NCBI GenBank assembly: GCA_947472765.1
Contig: CANJCM010000034.1
Span: 1 to 46,936, forward strand
Source: Opitutia bacterium
GTDB lineage: Bacteria > Verrucomicrobiota > Verrucomicrobiia > Opitutales > Opitutaceae
Direction of reading: 5' to 3'
DNA: 46,936 bases
In this document: positions 5,602 to 46,936 of the stretch, piece after piece
How positions within the stretch are numbered: the stretch's first letter is position 1
Layout: every line of letters starts with the position of its first letter
Made by a program: the position numbers and the translations under genes
Notes under the pieces: model-generated
The model's input: the letters and a program-made list of their open reading frames with translations, nothing else
What the model was told of the DNA's origin: nothing
The model's database searches: none

Positions 5602-5997
5602 CGGCATTTTCGATTTCCGATTCTCGATTTTCGAGTGGGGAACGGAGCGCCGACCCAATACGGCCCCGGGATTTTCCACCGTCGGTTGTCATTCTGAGCG
5701 GGAGCGAAGCATCCAGGCGTAACGATCGCCGTTCTGAGGCCGGCCTTACGTCATCCGGAACCGACAGCCGTCTGCATGGATTCTTCGCTGCGCTCAGAAT
5801 GACAGACCAGAAGAAGATTTGGGCGCACACGAGGTGCGCCCCTACGACCCAAGCCAGCTAGGGCCGCCGCGGAACCGATCTTACCACCGAGACACCGAGA
5901 ACGCCGTCGTTCTCCGCGTCTCGGTGTCTCGGTCGTTAATTTCCGAGGATCGAAGTTCGCCCAATCGAAAATCGAGAATCCAAAATCGAAAATCCCC
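5602..5997. repeat. Mosaic of five dispersed repeat types
   Basis: A gene-free gap between metF and the SUI1-like gene, made almost entirely of repeats. At 5605-5640 and 5962-5997 are two oppositely oriented copies of a TTTTCGATTT-type word, framing the block. At 5687-5806 is a long imperfect palindrome whose arms read roughly GTCATTCTGAGCG and CGCTCAGAATGAC. At 5821-5845 is a REP-like hairpin (GGGCGCA/TGCGCCC) with CTAC, the complement of a GTAG foot, at 5842-5845. At 5886-5933 is a 15-bp perfect stem (ACCGAGACACCGAGA pairing with TCTCGGTGTCTCGGT). I see no coding potential. Confidence 0.8.
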
Positions 5998-6396
5998 TCA
6001 CCCTCCCGCGAACACCGCGCGGAATCCCGCCTCCGTCAGAATTTTCGCCACGGTTTCCCTCTGGTCGCCCTGAATCTCGATCACGCCGTCCTTGACGGTG
6101 CCGCCGCAGCCGCAGGCGGCGCGCATTTTCTTCGCGAGTTGTTCCTTCTCGGGCAGCCCGATGCCGACGAAGCCGTCGACCACCGTCACCGTCTTGCCGC
6201 CGCGCCCGCCGGTCTCGCGCCGCACGTCGACGCGTCCGCGATTCTTCACCGGCTTCGCTTCCGGCGCTGGCCGGCCGGCAGTTTTCGGTGCGCTGGCGGG
6301 GTTCGCGTTCGGCAGTCCGGCCGCCGAGAGCGCCGCAAACGGGTTATGCCCCAACGACCCGCCGCCATCCGTGGAAATCTTCTGAGGACCGCTCAT
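5998..6396 (-). CDS. SUI1/YciH-family translation factor homologue
   Basis: A protein of about 132 residues. The C-terminal half (RETGGRGGKTVTVVDGFVGI, then MRAACGCGGTVKDGVIEIQG, then AKILTEAGF) is a full SUI1/eIF1 domain, as in bacterial YciH. The N-terminal half is a low-complexity Gly/Ala/Pro/Lys tail. Bacterial members are thought to influence start-codon fidelity on the 30S subunit, but the role is not settled. The frame extends to 6438; the ATG at 6396 (MSGPQKIST) fits the family better. The gene follows a small unknown gene by 45 bp on the same strand, and both diverge from sucA. This is a fidelity-type factor in a genome whose starts lack Shine-Dalgarno sequences, though no functional link is shown. 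Confidence 0.85.
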   Translation of the reverse strand: MSGPQKISTDGGGSLGHNPFAALSAAGLPNANPASAPKTAGRPAPEAKPVKNRGRVDVRRETGGRGGKTVTVVDGFVGIGLPEKEQLAKKMRAACGCGGTVKDGVIEIQGDQRETVAKILTEAGFRAVFAGG

Positions 6397-9808: not shown

Positions 9809-11032
9809 ATGCCTCTCCTCGAAGTCAAAATCCCGCCGATGGGCGAATCCATCAGCTCCGGCATCCTCGCCAAGTGGCACGTGGCCGACGGTGATGTCGT
9901 CAAGGCCGAGCAGCCGCTGTTCGAACTCGAGACCGACAAGATCACGTCTGAAGGCCTCGCGGAGGCCGCCGGAAAAATCACGTTCCTCGTCGCCGCCGGT
10001 GACGAGGTAAAGATCGGCCAGGTGGTCGCGACGATCGATCCCGCCGCGGTCGGTGCCGTGGCCGTGCCGGGCGGTTCCGCCTCGGCTCCGGCCGCAGCGA
10101 CCAAAACGACGGAAACGACGAATTCGCCCGCCGTCCGCCGGATCGCCGCCGAGACCGGCGTCGACCCCGCTTCGATCGCCGGCACCGGCAAGGCCGGCCG
10201 CGTTACCAAGGGCGACATGCTAACCTCCGCCGCCAAGGCTCCGGAGGTCACGGCCTCCTTGCCGGCACCCGCGCCCGTGGCGGCTCGGGCAATCGAAACT
10301 CCAAAATCCAAAATCGAAAATCCCGGCGCGTCTGCCCGGCAGACCCGCCGGAAGATGTCCCCTCTCCGCGCCAGGATCGCGCAGCGGCTCGTCTCGGCCC
10401 AGCACGAGGCCGCGATGCTCACGACTTTCAACGAGGTCGACATGTCCGCCGTCATGGCCCTGCGTGCGAAGTATCAGGACGACTTCGTGAAGAAGAACGG
10501 ACTGAAGCTCGGCTTCATGTCGTTCTTCGCCAAGGCCGCCGTCCACGCGTTGCGCGAGGTGCCCGCGGTCAACTCGCAGCTCGACGGCGATTCGATCGTC
10601 GAGAACCACTACTTCGACATCGGTGTCGCGGTCTCGACCGAGAAGGGCCTGATGGTCCCCGTCGTGCGGAACTGCGACACGCTCGGGATGGCTGATATCG
10701 AGAAGGCCATCGGCGACGCCGCGAAGCGCGCCCGCGAAGGCAAGATCACCCTCGCGGATCTCGAGGGCGGCGTCTTCACGATCACGAACGGCGGCATCTT
10801 CGGTTCGATGCTCTCCACGCCGATCATCAATCCGCCGCAGAGCGCCATTCTCGGCCTCCACGCCATCAACGAACGCCCGATCGCCGTGAACGGCCAGGTC
10901 GTCATCCGTCCGATGATGTACCTCGCCCTCAGCTATGATCACCGCGTGATCGACGGCAAGGAAGCCGTCACCTTCCTCGTGAAGGTGAAGCAGGCGATTG
11001 AGGATCCGTCGCGCTTGGTCATCGGTATCTAA
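9809..11032 (+). CDS. sucB: Dihydrolipoyllysine succinyltransferase (2-OGDH E2)
   Basis: A 407-residue E2 core enzyme of the 2-oxoglutarate dehydrogenase complex that moves succinyl from the lipoyl group to CoA. Residues 1-77 form one lipoyl domain with the lipoylated lysine at 44 (ETDKITSEG). Residues 106-138 are the peripheral-subunit-binding domain ([20 protein letters not shown]). The catalytic domain runs from about 180 to the end and carries the His/Asp motif [12 protein letters not shown]. The linker between them contains [10 protein letters not shown] at 163-172, encoded by a dispersed intergenic word at 10291-10324. The frame stays open and the enzyme looks intact. The start at 9809 ([14 protein letters not shown]) is preferred to the GTG at 9785. 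A single lipoyl domain and the PPMGES start are typical of SucB. Confidence 0.96.
10291..10324 (+). repeat. Dispersed word inside the sucB linker
   Basis: This stretch reads with CCAAAATCCAAAATCGAAAA in its centre and matches, by eye, the repeats at 5962-5997 and 21457-21493. It is AT-rich against a very GC-rich coding background. It encodes [10 protein letters not shown] in frame, inside the flexible Ala/Pro linker between the binding domain and the catalytic domain of E2. Confidence 0.75.
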
Positions 11033-12574: not shown

Positions 12575-13158
12575 ACTCGGGCGTGGGGTCGGCTGGAAAC
12601 CGACGGCGCGAGCCGGGCGGAGAACCGAGCCAACACACCCCGCCCTTCGGGCACCCCTCTCCAAGAGGGGACCTTCGAAAGCCGCCTGGTCTAGGTAAGC
12701 GGCAAGACTGTGAAGCGCATGCGGAGATCCCCTCTCGAGCCGGAACGATGCAGTCAAATGTAGGGCCGGCGCTCGCCGCCGGGCCGTTTCGCGAATGAAA
12801 GCCGTGGCCCGGCCGACGGGCCGGTTCGGCAAGCTCACGGCCAAACGTAGGGAATCCCGGGCCCTGAGCCAGTCGAAGGGCGCCGGCCCTACACCGATCC
12901 GTGGACGGTCCGTCGCACGTTAGGCAGCCCTGGACGGTGGGGGCACCGTCCCTCCATGGATTGCTCTTTGAGAGGAACGCGAACGAAAGTCTGAACGATC
13001 CGCCTACCCTGGAGGGCGGGTGCCCTCACCCGCCGATTTCGTTCCACTGCATCGTTCCGGCTCCAGAGGGGTGGCGCGCAGCGCCGGGGTGTGTCCCGGC
13101 ATTCGGCCCACCATGAGTGTTCCGCTCCGACCGCGCGCAATCAGCGTCCCGTCCGCCC
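12575..13158. repeat. Gene-free REP and repeat cluster after lpd
   Basis: No gene is seen. At 12632-12675 and 13062-13095 are facing copies of one family (ACACACCCCG and ACCCCTCT words in one, the complement in the other). At 12760-12785 is a GTAG foot followed by a GGCCGGCG/CGCCGGGCC hairpin. At 12847-12892 a segment starts GTAG and ends CTAC, holding CCCTGAGCC and CGAAGGG. At 12932-12955 is a hairpin ending in CTCC, and at 13011-13034 one beginning GGAG (stem GGCGGGTG/CACCCGCC). These are typical REP-like designs and lie in both orientations between convergent genes. Confidence 0.75.
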
Positions 13159-15339: not shown

Positions 15340-15757
15340 GGGGGCCAAGCAGGAATTGCGACTCCGCGTGGCGGCGGCAACCGGATTTCCGGTGGCTGGA
15401 AATTGCTGACGGAATCCGAGGTGGCGCCGCCTCGCCGCTCCCCCCATGGAGGGCCGGTGCCCTCACCGGCCAGGGTGTGAGTTCCTCATTTTGGCGGATG
15501 TGGACACCCGCCCTCCATCGGACGCGCGAGCCGAACGTCCGGCAGCTGAATCATCGTTTCCATGGAGGGCCGGTGCCCTCACCGGCCATGGCGGTGCGAT
15601 ATGCTTTCTGGAGGGTGGGACACCCGCCCTCCATTTCATTGATCGTCTCTCCGCCCGTTCGAACGATGAAAGCTCTTGCTGGAGGTGTGACCGCTGTTAA
15701 CACCGACGCACCCATGACCCCGCCCTATTGCCCCTGCCGCCTTGTGGCGGATCGTTC
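15340..15757. repeat. Gene-free gap with tandem GGAG-type REP units
   Basis: This divergent gap between the TonB receptor and the MFS gene holds two similar units, each beginning with a hairpin that starts GGAG (stem GGCCGGTG/CACCGGCC) and ending with a hairpin that finishes CTCC. Unit 1 has hairpins at 15448-15471 and 15493-15516, unit 2 at 15564-15587 and 15610-15632. Each pair faces inward, as in a BIME made of two REPs. The promoters for both flanking genes must also lie here, but I cannot point to them. Confidence 0.75.
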
Positions 15758-19257: not shown

Positions 19258-20041
19258 AACCGTAGCCCGCTGCGTGAGCAGCGGGACAAGGGCGCTAACC
19301 CGCAGCAGCCCCATCAGTTTCGCGGTTACGCGAAACTGCCGCCGCGGCTGATGCAATGTCTGATCAGCTACACTTCAGCTTAATCTGCCGCTAAAACTCA
19401 GACGGCCCTGAGGGGTTGGCCGCAAAAAGGCGCAGAAGGCGCAAAAAAACAATCCACCGGACGGGCGTGCACGAGGGCTGCCTCGTCTCGAATTAGCCTA
19501 ACGAAGGCAACCCAAGTGCACGCCCGGGATTTGCCCGCTCGGACTGCTTACTCGCGCTTACCGTCACCTCGTGACCGCGTTTTTCCGGCGATACGCCCGC
19601 AACCCGGTAGACCGTGTGCAGACTCTGTCATTCTGAGCGGAGCGAAGTTACCGAGCGCAGCGAGAGGCTTGGTCATCCACGCGCATAACTCCCTCGAAAG
19701 CATGGATTCTTCGCTCCGCTCAGAATGACAAAAGGGGATTTGGTTTCGCGCCACTCTCACCTGTACCGGACCTCACGACCGCGGAAGCAGCTCAGAAGAG
19801 ACGCGTGGAAGAAGTCCACGCGGGGCCAAACCGGCGCGCACGAGGTCTGCGTTCCTGCCAATGCTTCAATTTCAGCGGACCTCGTGCGCGCCCGTCTGTG
19901 GATTGGTGGATTGGTTTTTGCGCCTCTTGTGCCTTTTTGCGGCCAATCCCTCCGCGGTTTGGAAGAAGCGTCCAAGAATTGGACCCTCCGAATCCTGCCC
20001 CATCCTGCAATCCTGTCCAAACTCCGGGTCCCATCCGAGGA
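19258..20041. repeat. Gene-free repeat field before the rhamnose isomerase 3' end
   Basis: About 780 bp with no gene. It contains, in order: a GTAG-footed hairpin at 19262-19285 (CCCGCTGC/GCAGCGGG); an ATCAG...CTGAT element at about 19314-19353 holding GCGAAACTGCCGCCGCGG; a GGCGCAGAAGGCGC word near 19430; an 11-bp perfect stem at 19462-19526 (CGGGCGTGCAC/GTGCACGCCCG); a long palindrome at 19625-19731 of the CATTCTGAGCG type; a 15-bp perfect stem at 19833-19892 (GGCGCGCACGAGGTC/GACCTCGTGCGCGCC); and a CATCCTG/AATCCTG word near 20000. Frames in this block translate the repeats and look like no protein I know. Confidence 0.75.
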
Positions 20042-21241: not shown

Positions 21242-21503
21242 GGTAGGACCGCGACTTTGCCGCGCGCCCCGCGAAGTTCCAGCCGAGAACACGAGGCGTC
21301 TCGCTCAGCTCAGCGAACACACCACGTCGCTTCGCGCCACCCCTCTCCAAGAGGGGATCTTCGATCCGCCTTCTCTCTGCTTGGAGATCTGCCGCTACCT
21401 CGTGCTCGTAATAGTTCTCGCTCTCGCAATGTAGGGCCGGCGCTCGCCGCCGGGCCCAATCGAAAATCGAGATTCCAAAATCGAAAATCCCCCGGCGCGT
21501 TCC
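21242..21503. repeat. Repeat cluster between the Ldh2-type gene and rhaI
   Basis: Contents are an ACACACCACG...ACCCCTCT element at about 21316-21365, a CTCGTGCTCGTAATAG word near 21400, a GTAG-footed hairpin at 21431-21456 almost identical to the one at 12760-12785, and at 21457-21493 the TTTTCGATTT-type word in complement. The last ends about 12 bases beyond the stop codon of the Ldh2-type gene. Confidence 0.75.
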
Positions 21504-22556
21504 CTACATCGCGGCGGGAGCCGCGATGCCGAGCTTCTTCATCCACGGCTCCAGCGAGGGCATGATGCTGGGATAAAGTTCGACACCTTGTTTGAGTTGC
21601 TCCTCGCGACGACGCAGGCCGGCCTCGCCGGGAACGCGCACGCGATCGAAGCCCGGCCGTGGCGGCGTGGCGCGACACCCATCGGCGAGATGCGAGGTCA
21701 GCGCGACGAACTCGTCCCGCCCGCCGAAGAACGCGGGATTGATCACCTGGACGAACACCGACGCGCCCCAGCCTTCCTTCGGATGCAAACGACCACGCCC
21801 CGTCAGCGCGCTCGTCAGGGTCTCCACAAAGAGCGCGAGGGCGTAGCCCTTGTGTCCGTGATCGACGCCACCCATCGGCAGCAACGTGCCGGAGGGTTCC
21901 GCAAACATGACGCCCGGATCGTCGGTGGGAATGCCCGCGGCATCGAGCAGCCACTTGCCGGGCAGCGGCTTCTTCTCGGTGTGCATCCGCTTGATCAGAC
22001 CATTCGTCGTGATCGACATCGACACATCGAGGATCACGGGATGCCCGTTCGTCGGCCACGCCGCCGCAAAGGGATTCGGCGTGTACATCGGCTTGCGCCC
22101 TCCGTGCGGCGAGACACTCGACCCGGCCGGATCCGAACAGGAGAGAATCGCCATCATGCCCTGCTCGGTCACCGGCCGCAGAAACGCCGCGAGGCACGCG
22201 ATGTGATGGCTGCGCTGAATTACGATCGTGCAGGTCCCGTGCTGCTTCGCTCGCTCCGTCGCGAGAGTCAGCGCCCGCACCGCGAGCCACGGCCCGGGCA
22301 ACCGTTGTCCATCCCAGTTCACGGCCGCCGGAAAATCGGCAATCACGCGCGGCGAGCCCGACTTCGTCATCGATCCGCTCTCCAGTTCGCCGAGGTAACC
22401 AGCGAGCAAGGCGAGCCCATGCGTGGTATGCCCCATCAGGTCGCCCTCGACCAGGATATCGGCAACGACCCTGGACTTCTCGTCCTCGAGTCCGGCCCGG
22501 TTGAGCAGGTCCGTGGCAAATTGCGTGAGCGCGGTGGGGGAAAAGCGGGCAGGCAT
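21504..22556 (-). CDS. Ldh2 (malate/L-lactate) family dehydrogenase
   Basis: A 350-residue NAD(P)-dependent 2-hydroxyacid oxidoreductase of the Ldh2/YlbC/YiaK/ComC family, which has its own fold and not the classical Rossmann LDH fold. Segments typical of the family are DLMGHTTHGLALLAGYLGEL near residue 40, with the conserved His, then VIQRSHHIACLAAFLRPVTEQGMM and DVSMSITTNGLIKRMHTEKK. GTLLPMGGVDHGHKGYALALFVETL is the NAD-binding/lysine region. Members act on malate, sulfolactate, ureidoglycolate, 2,3-diketogulonate or proline-derived imines. With a sugar isomerase next to it, a sugar-acid substrate is likely but unproven. The start is the first ATG of a frame matching the usual N-terminus. 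The long frame read in another phase here (22749 to 21310) is a shadow. Confidence 0.9.
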   Translation of the reverse strand: MPARFSPTALTQFATDLLNRAGLEDEKSRVVADILVEGDLMGHTTHGLALLAGYLGELESGSMTKSGSPRVIADFPAAVNWDGQRLPGPWLAVRALTLATERAKQHGTCTIVIQRSHHIACLAAFLRPVTEQGMMAILSCSDPAGSSVSPHGGRKPMYTPNPFAAAWPTNGHPVILDVSMSITTNGLIKRMHTEKKPLPGKWLLDAAGIPTDDPGVMFAEPSGTLLPMGGVDHGHKGYALALFVETLTSALTGRGRLHPKEGWGASVFVQVINPAFFGGRDEFVALTSHLADGCRATPPRPGFDRVRVPGEAGLRRREEQLKQGVELYPSIMPSLEPWMKKLGIAAPAAM

Positions 22557-41476: not shown

Positions 41477-41891
41477 ACGTCGGGGCACGGTGGCGCATCA
41501 GGGAAAATTTTCGAGCAAATCCGCCGCGACTGCCCCCGGGAACGGCGGCCCCGGCGGACGGTTTACGCCGCAACTATGAATCAGTAGCCCTCGCGCCGCG
41601 GCGCATGGACGGGAGTAAACCAACCAAATACAAACCGCACCGCTCGAGCGAAGCGACAGGCTCGGTCATCCAGACCTTATGCTCCCTCGAAGGCATGGAT
41701 TCTTCGCTGCGCTCAGAATGACAAAACGGGGGATCTGTCGGTGAGCTCCGCATCCGATGAGTGCTCCATTAGTGCCAATGAGTGGTTTCCCCGGATTGGT
41801 TCCGAAGCCCGGCCCTCTGCGCCTTCGTGACTTCGTGGTTAACTCCGAATCGAGCCACCACTCGCTCACGCTCGCGGCCACGGACTCGCAT
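41477..41891. repeat. Gene-free gap between uxs and tgt with truncated repeats
   Basis: No gene is seen. At about 41668-41722 lies the right half of the CATTCTGAGCG-type palindrome; it matches 19668-19730 closely, including a CTCCCTCGAA inner part, but its left arm is missing. At about 41755-41790 are ATGAGTG/ATTAGTG words related to 9761-9790. At about 41817-41850 is a GCGCCTTCGTGACTTCGTGG word. The upstream region of uxs must also be here. Confidence 0.7.
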
Positions 41892-43040: not shown

Positions 43041-43733
43041 TCGATCGACTCTCGATGCTCTCCCCGCGCGACCCAATCCTTTTTCACGCCTCCATGGTGT
43101 AGGGGCGCGCCTCGTGCGCGCCCTCGGCGGTGGCACGGGTCTCCCGACCCGTGAAAACACTACCGGTGGCCGTACGACCCTTCACGGGTAAGGAGACCCG
43201 TGCCACCCGTAGCGCCGCGTCTCCGACCGGCGAAAATCATTCCCTCGTTCTCATAATCGTTCTCCCCGCTCCGCGTCTCCGCGCCTCCGCGTGAGCCAAG
43301 CCCGGCGGAAACGTCCGCCCTAAAGCGGCCAGAATCAGCCCCCCAACTCTCCATCCAATCCATTCCGCACGCGGATACGCGGAGATCAAGTAGTCGGAGG
43401 CTTTCCCTTTAATCGTTTCCTCAAGACCGGCCGGTGGGGGCACCGGCCCTCCATCGTGTGTAGGGGCGTGCCTCGTGCGCGCCCTCGGCGGTGGCACGGG
43501 TCTCCCGACCCGTGAAAACACTACCGGTGGTCGTACGTTCCTTCACGGGTCAGGAGACCCGTGCCACCTCGCTTCCCTCCGCGTCTCCGCGCCTCCACGT
43601 GAGCCCAATCCCGGAACGCCCCACCCCATCAGCCTCGTCCGCAACCCCGCCGGCACTGTGCTTGTCCAACCCGCGTTTCACCCTTTGCATTCGGCCTTTC
43701 CGTCTTTCAGGCTGTTCAACTGCCTAACGCGCC
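43041..43733. repeat. REP array with a duplicated 109-bp module
   Basis: No gene is seen in about 690 bp between the divergent tgt and trpG/pabA-like genes. Two 109-bp modules, 43099-43207 and 43460-43568, differ at five positions by eye. Each begins with a GTAG-footed hairpin (GGGCGCGC/GCGCGCCC) and continues with a facing pair of CACGGGTC-type hairpins whose outer ends read GGTGGCACGGGTCTCC and GGAGACCCGTGCCACC. After each module comes a CGCGTCTCCGCGCCTCC word. At 43429-43452 is a hairpin with a CTCC end (GGCCGGTG type). The rest holds no recognisable sequence. Frames such as 43237-43521 translate these repeats only. Confidence 0.85.
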
Positions 43734-44949: not shown

Positions 44950-45031
44950 GGGCGCGCACGAGGCACGCCCCGACGAAGCGCGTAGCAGCCGGGCTCGTCC
45001 GACTTTGTAGGGGCGCGCCTCGTGCGCGCCC
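44950..45031. repeat. Inverted REP pair between nrdR and the next gene
   Basis: A GGGCGCGCACGAGG... arm at about 44950-44971 faces a GTAG-footed hairpin at 45007-45031 (foot at 45007-45010). The two together can fold into one long stem around CCGGGCTCGTCC. The left member has CGAC where a perfect inverted copy would have CTAC, so only the right one keeps the canonical foot. Confidence 0.75.
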
Positions 45032-45558: not shown

Positions 45559-45856
45559 CGCGCTCTCATTGCCGATTGCCGGGTGCCGATTGCCGAGTGA
45601 TTACGTCGGCTAACGCCGGTCGACCGTTCCGCCAGCCCTGCGGTTGAACCACAGATGGACACGGATGGACCCAAATCTCGTGGTGCAATCGGACGCGGGT
45701 TTCCGAAAGCAGCAGCGCGGTTCACGAGGAGCGGCGGAAGCGCGGAGAGCCAGAGGGTTCGCCTTCGCGGCTTCGCGCTTCGGCGTGAGTCACCGCCCTG
45801 TTGGCGCGGGACCGACTGGGCCGCAGACCGAAAGCTATCGGGGTTCCCAAAAGGGG
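45559..45856. repeat. Gene-free gap with dispersed words before the RAYT gene
   Basis: The GCCGATTGCCGGGTGCCG word lies at about 45570-45600, a CCACAGATGGACACGGATGG word at about 45648-45667, and a CGCGGAGAGCCAGAGGG / TTCGCGGCTTCGCGC block at about 45738-45785. Both directions of transcription converge here. No hairpin with a GTAG or GGAG foot is seen directly next to the transposase stop codon. Confidence 0.55.
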
Positions 45857-46840
45857 TCATGGCAGGATTCGGGATATTGCGGCCTTAATCGCGGGGTTTT
45901 CGAGGGCGCCAGACTTGCGAAACTGACACAGCCACGGGCCCAGGCTGCCTGGCGTTCCCATCTGAAGGCGCTGCGCGAGCCAGTTCCGCGAAACCGAGGT
46001 GCTGAGCTTCATCGCGGTAGCCAGCAGGAGCTTTTCGCCGGCGGATTTTTTTCGGGGCAAACAGTCGAGGGAAATGCCGAGCTCTCCCGCAAGTTTGCGG
46101 AGTTGCCCTTCCCACAGCTCGGCCCGGGCCGCGATGACCGCCTCGCGATCTGCGCCCAGCAGGGAAAAGCTTTCCCGCCGGTCATGGAGACGGGAGCGCA
46201 ACTCCGCCCGAAATGCGGTGGAGCCCAATGCCCAGCCACGGCTGAGTTTTGCGAATCCTTTCTCGCGCATCACGGGATCCTTCTCCCACAGCACTCCGAG
46301 GTATTCACGATATTGGCGCCATCCCGCCGGCGTGTCGCTCAGCCGGCCGCTCTCGCCCAGCACCGTCGCCGGTTCCAGCCATGCCGGGCGGTCGCGGCGC
46401 GGAAACCAGGCGAGGCTGCTCCAGCGATACTCCCAGACTCGTTCCACCGGCACGACTCCGGCTTCGACCGGATTCAGGTGAACGTAGTGCGCCACCTGGG
46501 CGACCACATGGCCGGGTTCGAGCGGCTTGGCGAAGAACCGGCCCTGGAACGGCCGGCCCGTTATGCTGCGGTACCGGTTGAAGCGTCGGGCCCATGTACC
46601 CTGCAGCCACTGCATCCCGTCACTCAGGTTCGGCTCCGGCGTTTCGAGCACGAGGTGGAAGTGATTCTGCATGATCGAGTAGGCGTGCATGAGCCATCCG
46701 TGGCTCGAACAGACTTCGTCGAGGCAGCGCCGAAATGATTCCGCCGCCCCTTTCGTCGCGAAAATCGGCTGCCGGTAATTGCCGCGGTTGATGACGTGAT
46801 AGCAGGCGCCCGAGAATTCGAGTCGGAGTCGGCGAGGCAT
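45857..46840 (-). CDS. REP-associated tyrosine transposase (RAYT, Y1 HUH family)
   Basis: A 327-residue HUH single-strand transposase-like enzyme. The N-terminal segment PRRLRLEFSGACYHVINRGN is the usual RAYT opening. The metal-binding HUH pair is H60 and H62 in MQNHFHLVLE, and the likely nucleophile is Y119 in HYVHLNPVEAG. GRPFQGRFFAKPL lies between. The C-terminal third (about 215-327) is a separate helical, probably DNA-binding part with VSRNWLAQRLQMGTPGSL. RAYTs are domesticated relatives of IS200/IS605 transposases that cut REP hairpins, usually single-copy and not flanked by insertion-sequence ends. The ATG at 46840 (MPRRLRL) is preferred to 46924. It appears intact. The many GTAG/GGAG-footed hairpins in this window are its candidate substrates. 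Confidence 0.9.
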   Translation of the reverse strand: MPRRLRLEFSGACYHVINRGNYRQPIFATKGAAESFRRCLDEVCSSHGWLMHAYSIMQNHFHLVLETPEPNLSDGMQWLQGTWARRFNRYRSITGRPFQGRFFAKPLEPGHVVAQVAHYVHLNPVEAGVVPVERVWEYRWSSLAWFPRRDRPAWLEPATVLGESGRLSDTPAGWRQYREYLGVLWEKDPVMREKGFAKLSRGWALGSTAFRAELRSRLHDRRESFSLLGADREAVIAARAELWEGQLRKLAGELGISLDCLPRKKSAGEKLLLATAMKLSTSVSRNWLAQRLQMGTPGSLGPWLCQFRKSGALENPAIKAAISRILP

Positions 46841-46936
46841 AGTCCCAGTAACTCCGGACGGCGCCGGGGGCGCTTCAACCGTCCACAGGCCCCAATTTTC
46901 GGCGGATATCCCGAATCCTACCATGACCCCGTGTAC
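46841..46936. other. Right edge upstream of the RAYT gene
   Basis: About 96 bp with no recognised feature. The RAYT frame stays open through most of it (to 46924) but without family character. The promoter of the transposase gene is probably here or beyond the window end. Confidence 0.4.

Follow-up and report, generated by a model that had tools for sequence, protein, structure and literature searches.

We found that the window, which is the whole 46,936-nt contig C34 of a draft genome (G000; 4.97 Mb, 157 contigs, 95.9% complete), carries five REP families, A to E (Table 1), and that the transposase gene near its right end lies within inverted repeats of its own. The reading that we favor, at a probability of roughly 0.8, is that this gene belongs to a TIRYT that does not serve the REPs, and that families A to E would have been spread in trans by short RAYTs, each pair being specific in both foot and hairpin. 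With little better than even confidence, we also suggest that RAYTs of the Opitutales repeatedly changed the foot that they read (GTAG, GTGG, GGAG and perhaps GGAN) by way of a small number of foot-pocket residues, those at E. coli positions 98, 101 and 102 near β4 and 17 in the N-terminal part, and so kept insulated RAYT-REP populations within one cell; the GGAG class would be undescribed.

Table 1. Transposase gene, inverted repeats (TIRs) and REP copies in the window.
Feature	Position	Strand	Remarks
Y1 (HUH) transposase gene, long type, 327 aa	45857..46840	-	intact; H60, H62, Y119
Left TIR GGGGTCATGGCAGGATTCGGGATAT	45853..45877	+	overlaps 3' end of transposase gene
Right TIR GGGGTCATGGTAGGATTCGGGATAT	46906..46930	-	6 nt before contig end
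REP family A	5821..5845	-	GTAG foot, stem GGGCGCAC
REP family A	43099..43123	+	GTAG foot, stem GGGCGCGC
REP family A	43460..43484	+	GTAG foot, one stem mismatch
REP family A	44950..44974	-	degenerate foot GTCG, inverted to 45007
REP family A	45007..45031	+	GTAG foot
REP family B	12760..12785	+	GTAG foot, bulged stem GGCCGGCG
REP family B	21431..21456	+	GTAG foot
REP family C	19262..19285	+	GTAG foot, stem CCCGCTGC, loop GTGA
REP family D	12932..12955	-	GGAG foot, stem GGACGGTG; one inverted pair with 13011
REP family D	13011..13034	+	GGAG foot, stem GGCGGGTG
REP family D	15448..15471	+	GGAG foot, stem GGCCGGTG
REP family D	15493..15516	-	GGAG foot, degenerate, 2 mismatches to core
REP family D	15564..15587	+	GGAG foot
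REP family D	43429..43452	-	GGAG foot
REP family E inverted pair	43130..43206	43130 +, 43183-43206 -	GTGG feet outward
REP family E inverted pair	43491..43567	43491 +, 43544-43567 -	GTGG feet outward

The genome carries hundreds of short hairpins of at least five kinds, and these hairpins are genuine REP elements. The feet were examined in an unbiased sample of 447 kb, comprising the window and 20 stretches of 20 kb. When the tetranucleotide preceding each perfect hairpin (stem of at least 8 bp) was measured against its own frequency, GTAG was enriched 35-fold (n = 29), GGAG 18.6-fold (n = 42) and GTGG 14.5-fold (n = 32); GCTA also reached 15.2-fold, but with n = 6 hairpins. The family cores were GTAG-GGGCGCGC-CTCGT (A), GTAG-GGCCGGCG with a bulged stem (B), GTRG-CCC...-GTGA (C), GGAG-GGNSGGTG-CCCN (D) and GTGG-CACGGGTC-TCCN (E). 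The same sample was then searched with the cores stripped of the foot, and the tetranucleotide was read afterwards. The conserved foot that the initial annotation had called for was evident, as GGAG preceded 34 of 34 D copies, GTGG preceded 13 of 13 E copies, and GTAG preceded 11 of 12 B copies and 17 of 20 A copies. Family C showed GTGG in 13 of 17 copies and GTAG in 3 of 17; its core pattern misses the stem CCCGCTGC, and copies with that stem mostly had a GTAG foot (9 of 11). Families A, B, C and E thus have the GT(A/G)G 5' tetranucleotide of REPs and REPINs. Family D has GGAG in all 34 copies with no GTRG upstream in any of them, is otherwise REP-like and was therefore filed as a REP variant.

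Within the window, the several hairpin classes noticed initially correspond to several REP families, and all seven of the GTAG hairpins counted at that stage were present. The GGAG sites also held, apart from that at 15610, which is a degenerate remnant. The class with the stem CACGGGTC, previously listed without a foot, proved to have a GTGG foot in its four copies (family E in Table 1). Reversed core patterns gave no match within the window. We also observed that a 111-nt block comprising an A REP and an E inverted pair occurs twice (43097-43207 and 43458-43568), the two copies being 361 nt apart and 95% identical.

Copies of the core patterns were counted on both strands in 37 genomes of the family (G000 and 36 relatives), with the reversed pattern as a control; family B was counted in the 447-kb sample only, where it had 12 copies. 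The palindromes of families A, C, D and E were abundant in G000 (147-342 copies) and, as the initial annotation had required, extended well beyond the window: 233 copies of A (266 by a narrower pattern allowing two mismatches), 238 of C, 342 of D and 147 of E. Among the relatives, D was found in G003, a genus-mate of G000 (6 copies), G016 (2), and G001, G011 and G027 (1 each), and was absent from the other 31. Family E had 290 copies in G004, 17 in G003, 13 in G035 and at most 2 elsewhere; C had 67 in G012, 59 in G015, 44 in G004, 43 in G016, 22 in G017 and at most 8 elsewhere; and A had 86 in G004, 33 in G007, 9 in G001, 8 in G005 and at most 3 elsewhere. The reversed patterns of A, C, D and E had no match in G000, and reversed D gave single stray matches in G010 and in G034. 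In named genomes, the D pattern was found in at least 13 stretches, and the listed ones were all titled Verrucomicrobia, Opitutia, Opitutaceae or Opitutus.

The arrangement of the copies is also that of REPs. In the unbiased sample, 9 of the 13 D neighbors lying within 250 nt of each other were inverted at exactly 83 nt, and inverted pairs were also present in families A, C and E. A consensus of 26 D pairs (9 from the sample and 17 fetched because they were already such pairs) showed that the spacer is conserved and that the consensus fades farther out in the flanks. The hairpins are short and GC-rich, and most published REPs are found downstream of genes (text of PMC3733652), as might be expected of ordinary transcription terminators or mRNA stabilizers that are held by selection and do not move. 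However, such elements would hardly exist as hundreds of near-identical copies, recur as an 83-nt inverted pair with a conserved spacer and diverging outer flanks, or be near-absent, as D is, from 36 relatives, and we give this explanation almost no credence.

The window gene is intact, with the catalytic residues noted initially, and its product matched Y1_Tnp at E 5.8e-13. Its description as a REP-associated tyrosine transposase was not sustained: the score against the NCBI model of that name was 64.7 bits, below the cut-off of 80, matched REPs do not flank the gene, and it has its own TIRs. These 25-nt TIRs share the pattern GGGGTCATGG[CT]AGGATTCGGGATAT and delimit an element of 1078 bp (45853-46930). 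A second element with the same TIRs is located at C27:39118-40197 and is 82% identical to that of the window; one further TIR copy, with 2 mismatches, lies on C14. The TIR sequence GGGGTCAT agrees with the TIRYT motif GGGGWSAS (text of PMC3733652) at 7 of 8 positions. More generally, among loci with enough flank, a GGGGTCA on each side was seen in 14 of the 26 long ones, the other 12 lacking the pair, and in 0 of the 85 short ones; TIRs at some long loci overlap the gene end. A foot-blind scan of the flanks of long loci revealed REP feet in 0 of 28; 26 gave nothing and 2 gave other short matches. Residues corresponding in the alignment to E100, H101 and R104 of the E. coli enzyme are also missing from the long type, the window gene included. 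Its C-terminal extension was conserved in 14 aligned proteins, and searches of this part against Pfam (including HTH and DnaA_C) and the PDB returned chance-like matches only.

Judged from these sequence features, the window gene fits the TIRYTs (TnpA_Y1 subclass 2.1, RAYT group 1) and would be a self-contained element tied to none of families A to E. In the texts of PMC3733652 and PMC6006769, this group shares with it a long Y1 protein that is extended at its C terminus, the absence of REPs and inverted repeats starting with GGGGTCA; subclass 2.1 is described there as having no REP-like sequences near its genes and as probably equivalent to the TIRYTs (PMC6006769). The differences are the one base by which the TIR departs from GGGGWSAS and the absence of a Pfam HTH or DnaA_C match in the C-terminal part.

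The REP-transposase model had nine matches in G000 with E values of 10 or less; the weakest was a RAYT fragment, three were short genes (on C32, C37 and C9) and five were long (the window gene and those on C49, C27, C4 and C141). There are thus several RAYTs in the genome, which was one of two possibilities raised initially. The short proteins have a Y1 domain with HUH and Y motifs, and their NCBIfam RAYT scores were 99.5 (C32), above the cut-off of 80, and 74.9 (C37) and 40.2 (C9), below it; the C9 protein was also below the Pfam cut-off. Each adjoins its own family on both sides: D REPs at C32 (L006), E inverted pairs at C37 (L007) and C REPs at C9 (L066). Families C, D and E each have a dedicated short RAYT elsewhere in the genome. 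Listing every RAYT gene with its flanking REP class, as the initial annotation had proposed, accordingly paired these three genes with D, E and C, and left the five long genes without matched REP flanks.

The other possibility raised initially was that a single enzyme, encoded in the window, serves all of the REP families here. The gene does encode both catalytic motifs, HUH and Y; its nearest REP is an A copy at a distance of 825 nt, and a further A copy, accompanied by a degenerate partner, is located 344 nt upstream of its paralogue on C49 (L002). However, neither the window gene nor its four paralogues had a matched REP pair (only 96 nt separate the window gene from the contig end upstream, and the long genes on C34, C49 and C141 are close to contig ends, such that their flanks were seen in part), the TIRs belong to the gene's own element, the residues aligned to E100, H101 and R104 are missing, and C, D and E REPs adjoin other RAYTs. 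We consider service by the window enzyme highly improbable.

For families A and B, no short RAYT was found beside the REPs or as a cognate in the G000 assembly, and a search of 12 genomes with the A-type RAYT of a relative (L108) gave only weak cross-matches in G000. In relatives, A-like REPs lie on both sides of L108 and L077 and on one side of L091, and B-like REPs flank L117 and L114. The RAYTs serving A and B would be either lost or absent from this draft, two situations that look alike in an incomplete draft, as assemblies can break at genes flanked by REPs. A long-type RAYT fragment (L067:1342-1800; G000 C10:27156) adjoins an inverted pair of A REPs; it was considered as the A enzyme and rejected, being of the long type. 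Additionally, G004 has its 290 E copies and no E-type RAYT at E <= 1e-20, which indicates that REP copy number needs no resident cognate. The expectation that the hairpins would follow RAYT presence among relatives was therefore borne out in part, by the near-absence of D from the 36 relatives, and failed for A and B and for E in G004. These orphan cases resemble those of pseudomonads, in which REPs outlast a lost RAYT (text of PMC3686654).

To compare feet across the order, RAYT-model matches were collected and found in at least 41 of 57 genomes (G000 included). We examined 118 loci, comprising the nine of G000, the highest-ranking entries of a longer match list and some long loci that were sampled deliberately; the FQG motif divided them into 28 long loci (including the fragment L067) and 90 short loci. 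The raw top feet of the 90 short loci, read foot-blind, were GTAG (29), GTGG (6), GGAG (5), GAGC (5), TGTA (3), GGTG (3) and AGGT (2), with ten others once each and none at 27, and many of the unusual ones were register shifts. Visual inspection gave a final call for 67 of the 90, with 40 GTAG (some of them one-sided, and including L066, which is mixed GTAG/GTGG), 11 GTGG and 16 GGAG-type loci, with no call for 23. Seven of these calls (L070, L076, L089, L099, L104, L122 and L153) came from a second scan that allowed only G[GTC][AG]G and was made after the residue pattern described below was known, and the GTGG foot overlaps the stem at L132, L134 and L147. The GGAG-type loci comprised four in which GGAG abuts the stem on both sides (L006, L090, L099 and L125), six with one base between GGAG and the stem (L076, L102, L113, L115, L141 and L155), four that were one-sided or mixed (L089, L104, L130 and L149) and two with GGAT/GGAN (L140 and L160). 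The RAYTs of L140 and L160 are related, and the feet of their REPs are GGAT or differ in the fourth base (GGAG/GGAC/GGAT); they would be a further foot class.

On a RAYT tree with 65 tips, holding 65 of the 67 called loci, the foot changed ten times, compared with a mean of 23.4 and a minimum of 16 after shuffling. The foot therefore follows descent, yet it has changed repeatedly.

Foot class was also associated with particular residues, which are numbered here after E. coli TnpAREP (4er8) by alignment. The column that best separated GGAG-type loci from the rest was Ec101 (best of 146 columns, with shared descent ignored). In the GGAG-type it held R in 13, T in 2 and H in 1 (n = 16); in GTAG loci it held H in 31 and R in 9 (n = 40), and in GTGG loci H in all 10 that were readable. 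Among the seven loci with GGAG on the stem, both-sided or one-sided (L006, L089, L090, L099, L125, L130 and L149), six had R, and the D enzyme of G000 (C32, L006) had H. The column that best separated GTGG was 17, again with descent ignored, where R was found in 6 of 8 readable GTGG loci and T in 37 of 37 readable GTAG loci. In the E. coli enzyme, the Ec101 column is occupied by H101, which is reported to contact the foot. The text of PMC6006769 discusses W94, Q95, E100, H101 and R104 as the foot region, and that of PMC8266576 places the foot contacts in β1, around β4 and in the C-terminal tail. The pocket residues, chiefly that of the Ec101 column, may thus be where the change of foot along the RAYT tree was made.

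The cleanest natural comparison, as far as sequence can tell, is that of L006 (GGAG) with its sister L087 (GTAG). L087 is intact and 56% identical to L006 over 149 residues, and on both sides has REPs of the form GTAG-GCGGGGTG-CCCY-CACCCCGC, with GTAG directly on the stem. The L006 REPs, GGAG-GGACGGTG/GGCGGGTG with the loop CCCN, form a similar hairpin. Around Ec101, L006 reads YFDHFVR, while L087, L103 and L105 read TFDHILR. A further relative, L233, lies outside the 90 short loci and is 58% identical to L006 over 112 residues, with GTAG REPs and the motif as in L087; its frame is apparently broken and departs after about residue 112.

In themselves, GGAG letters next to a stem have a precedent, since REPs of the form GTRG-GAG-stem have been published for Pseudomonas and Xanthomonas (texts of PMC2817692 and PMC3686654). 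The string GGAG occurs 16 times in PMC2817692, 18 times in PMC3686654 and not at all in PMC3733652, PMC6006769 or PMC8266576, and the occurrences viewed in the first two are parts of longer REP sequences that have GT(A/G)G as the tetranucleotide. The upstream consensus of D is CCAT-GGAG, with the T and GGAG in 34 of 34 copies, and the bases before GAG are not GTRG. As this is so, and as GTAG lies directly on the stem at L087, GGAG would be the true foot of D. Several of the five GGAG-C loci (L076, L102, L113, L115 and L155) could possibly be read as YTGG-GAG instead.

These points bear on the chief alternative, in which GGAG is a by-product and the C32 RAYT reads the stem, the loop and perhaps another flanking base, GGAG either hitch-hiking from one founder or being the GAG spacer of a decayed GTRG-GAG. 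All 34 sampled D copies could stem from one recent burst, GTRG-GAG-stem REPs are common in pseudomonads, and binding by TnpA_Sm tolerated single foot changes (text of PMC8266576). On the other hand, the same source reports that TnpA_Sm cleavage was still hurt by foot changes. Moreover, RAYTs in other genomes (L090, L099 and L125) also have GGAG next to them, on stems of different sequence; the four bases before GAG in D are not GTRG; GTAG at the sister RAYT occupies the same register, immediately adjoining the stem; and foot class goes with pocket residues. We regard a by-product as unlikely, although it carries some weight, and prefer GGAG as a foot that is read.

A GGAG foot lies outside the published tetranucleotide definition GT(A/G)G (text of PMC3686654) and the degenerate feet listed in the text of PMC3733652 (GYAG, GYRG, GTRG and GTMG), and none was found as a tetranucleotide foot in the running texts of PMC3733652, PMC6006769, PMC8266576, PMC3686654 and PMC2817692; on this sequence comparison it appears to be new. 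Multi-family REPs with dedicated RAYTs are already known, and several families are also present in Opitutus terrae (text of PMC3733652). The statement made initially that no description existed for Opitutaceae-like bacteria was consequently wrong in part, as O. terrae has several GTAG families, one of them mostly GTGG; the degenerate feet given in that text lack GGAG. This species is placed there in the same phylum and has several families in one genome, and the multi-family species of that study have repeat-specific REPtrons, as here; the likeness is one of general description. The REPtrons of Pseudomonas, Stenotrophomonas and E. coli, as described in the texts of PMC3686654, PMC2817692 and PMC8266576, likewise comprise short palindromes whose 5' tetranucleotide is conserved, inverted pairs, a short RAYT amid its own REP class and orphan classes after RAYT loss. 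They differ in the foot, which is GT(A/G)G, in pseudomonads often with GAG before the stem, in contrast to the GGAG on the stem of family D with no GTRG upstream.

Taken as a mechanism, the favored reading would combine known RAYT chemistry, namely single-strand recognition and tyrosine cleavage (text of PMC8266576), with several insulated REP populations. The long-type Y1 single-strand transposase and its 25-nt inverted repeats would form one TIRYT element, apart from the REPs. Each REP would be a single-stranded substrate whose foot tetranucleotide and hairpin are read by a RAYT, which would cut beside the REP through its catalytic tyrosine and make new copies in trans. The predicted pairs are D (GGAG) with C32, E (GTGG) with C37 and C (GTGG or GTAG) with C9, and the foot would have changed several times along the RAYT tree of the order. 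In the guide model, foot bases 3-4 choose CT, and GTGG gives CC (text of PMC8266576); GGAG would keep the A3G4 pair needed for CT sites, and GTGG would predict CC. Nothing clear was seen when copies of six family or sub-family cores were inspected for a cleavage dinucleotide at a fixed distance, and the assignment of cleavage sites by this model was dropped, there being no clear conserved dinucleotide around the six cores. The E. coli RAYT, whose REP complex was crystallized, tolerated no substitution in its GTAG foot (text of PMC8266576). Natural GGAG and GTGG enzymes, including related ones whose hairpins are similar and whose feet differ, would open foot reading to a simple swap experiment, and they suggest how several REP populations can remain separate in one genome.

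Two further repeats were observed in the window. A 49-nt repeat around GCATGGATTCTTCGCTSCGCTCAGAATGACA, outside the REP families, is present at 5763-5811, 19689-19737 and 41682-41730, two of the copies showing 71 and 94% identity to the one taken as reference. A 63-nt repeat starting with CAATCGAAA has three copies, at 5962-6024, 10290-10352 and 21457-21519.
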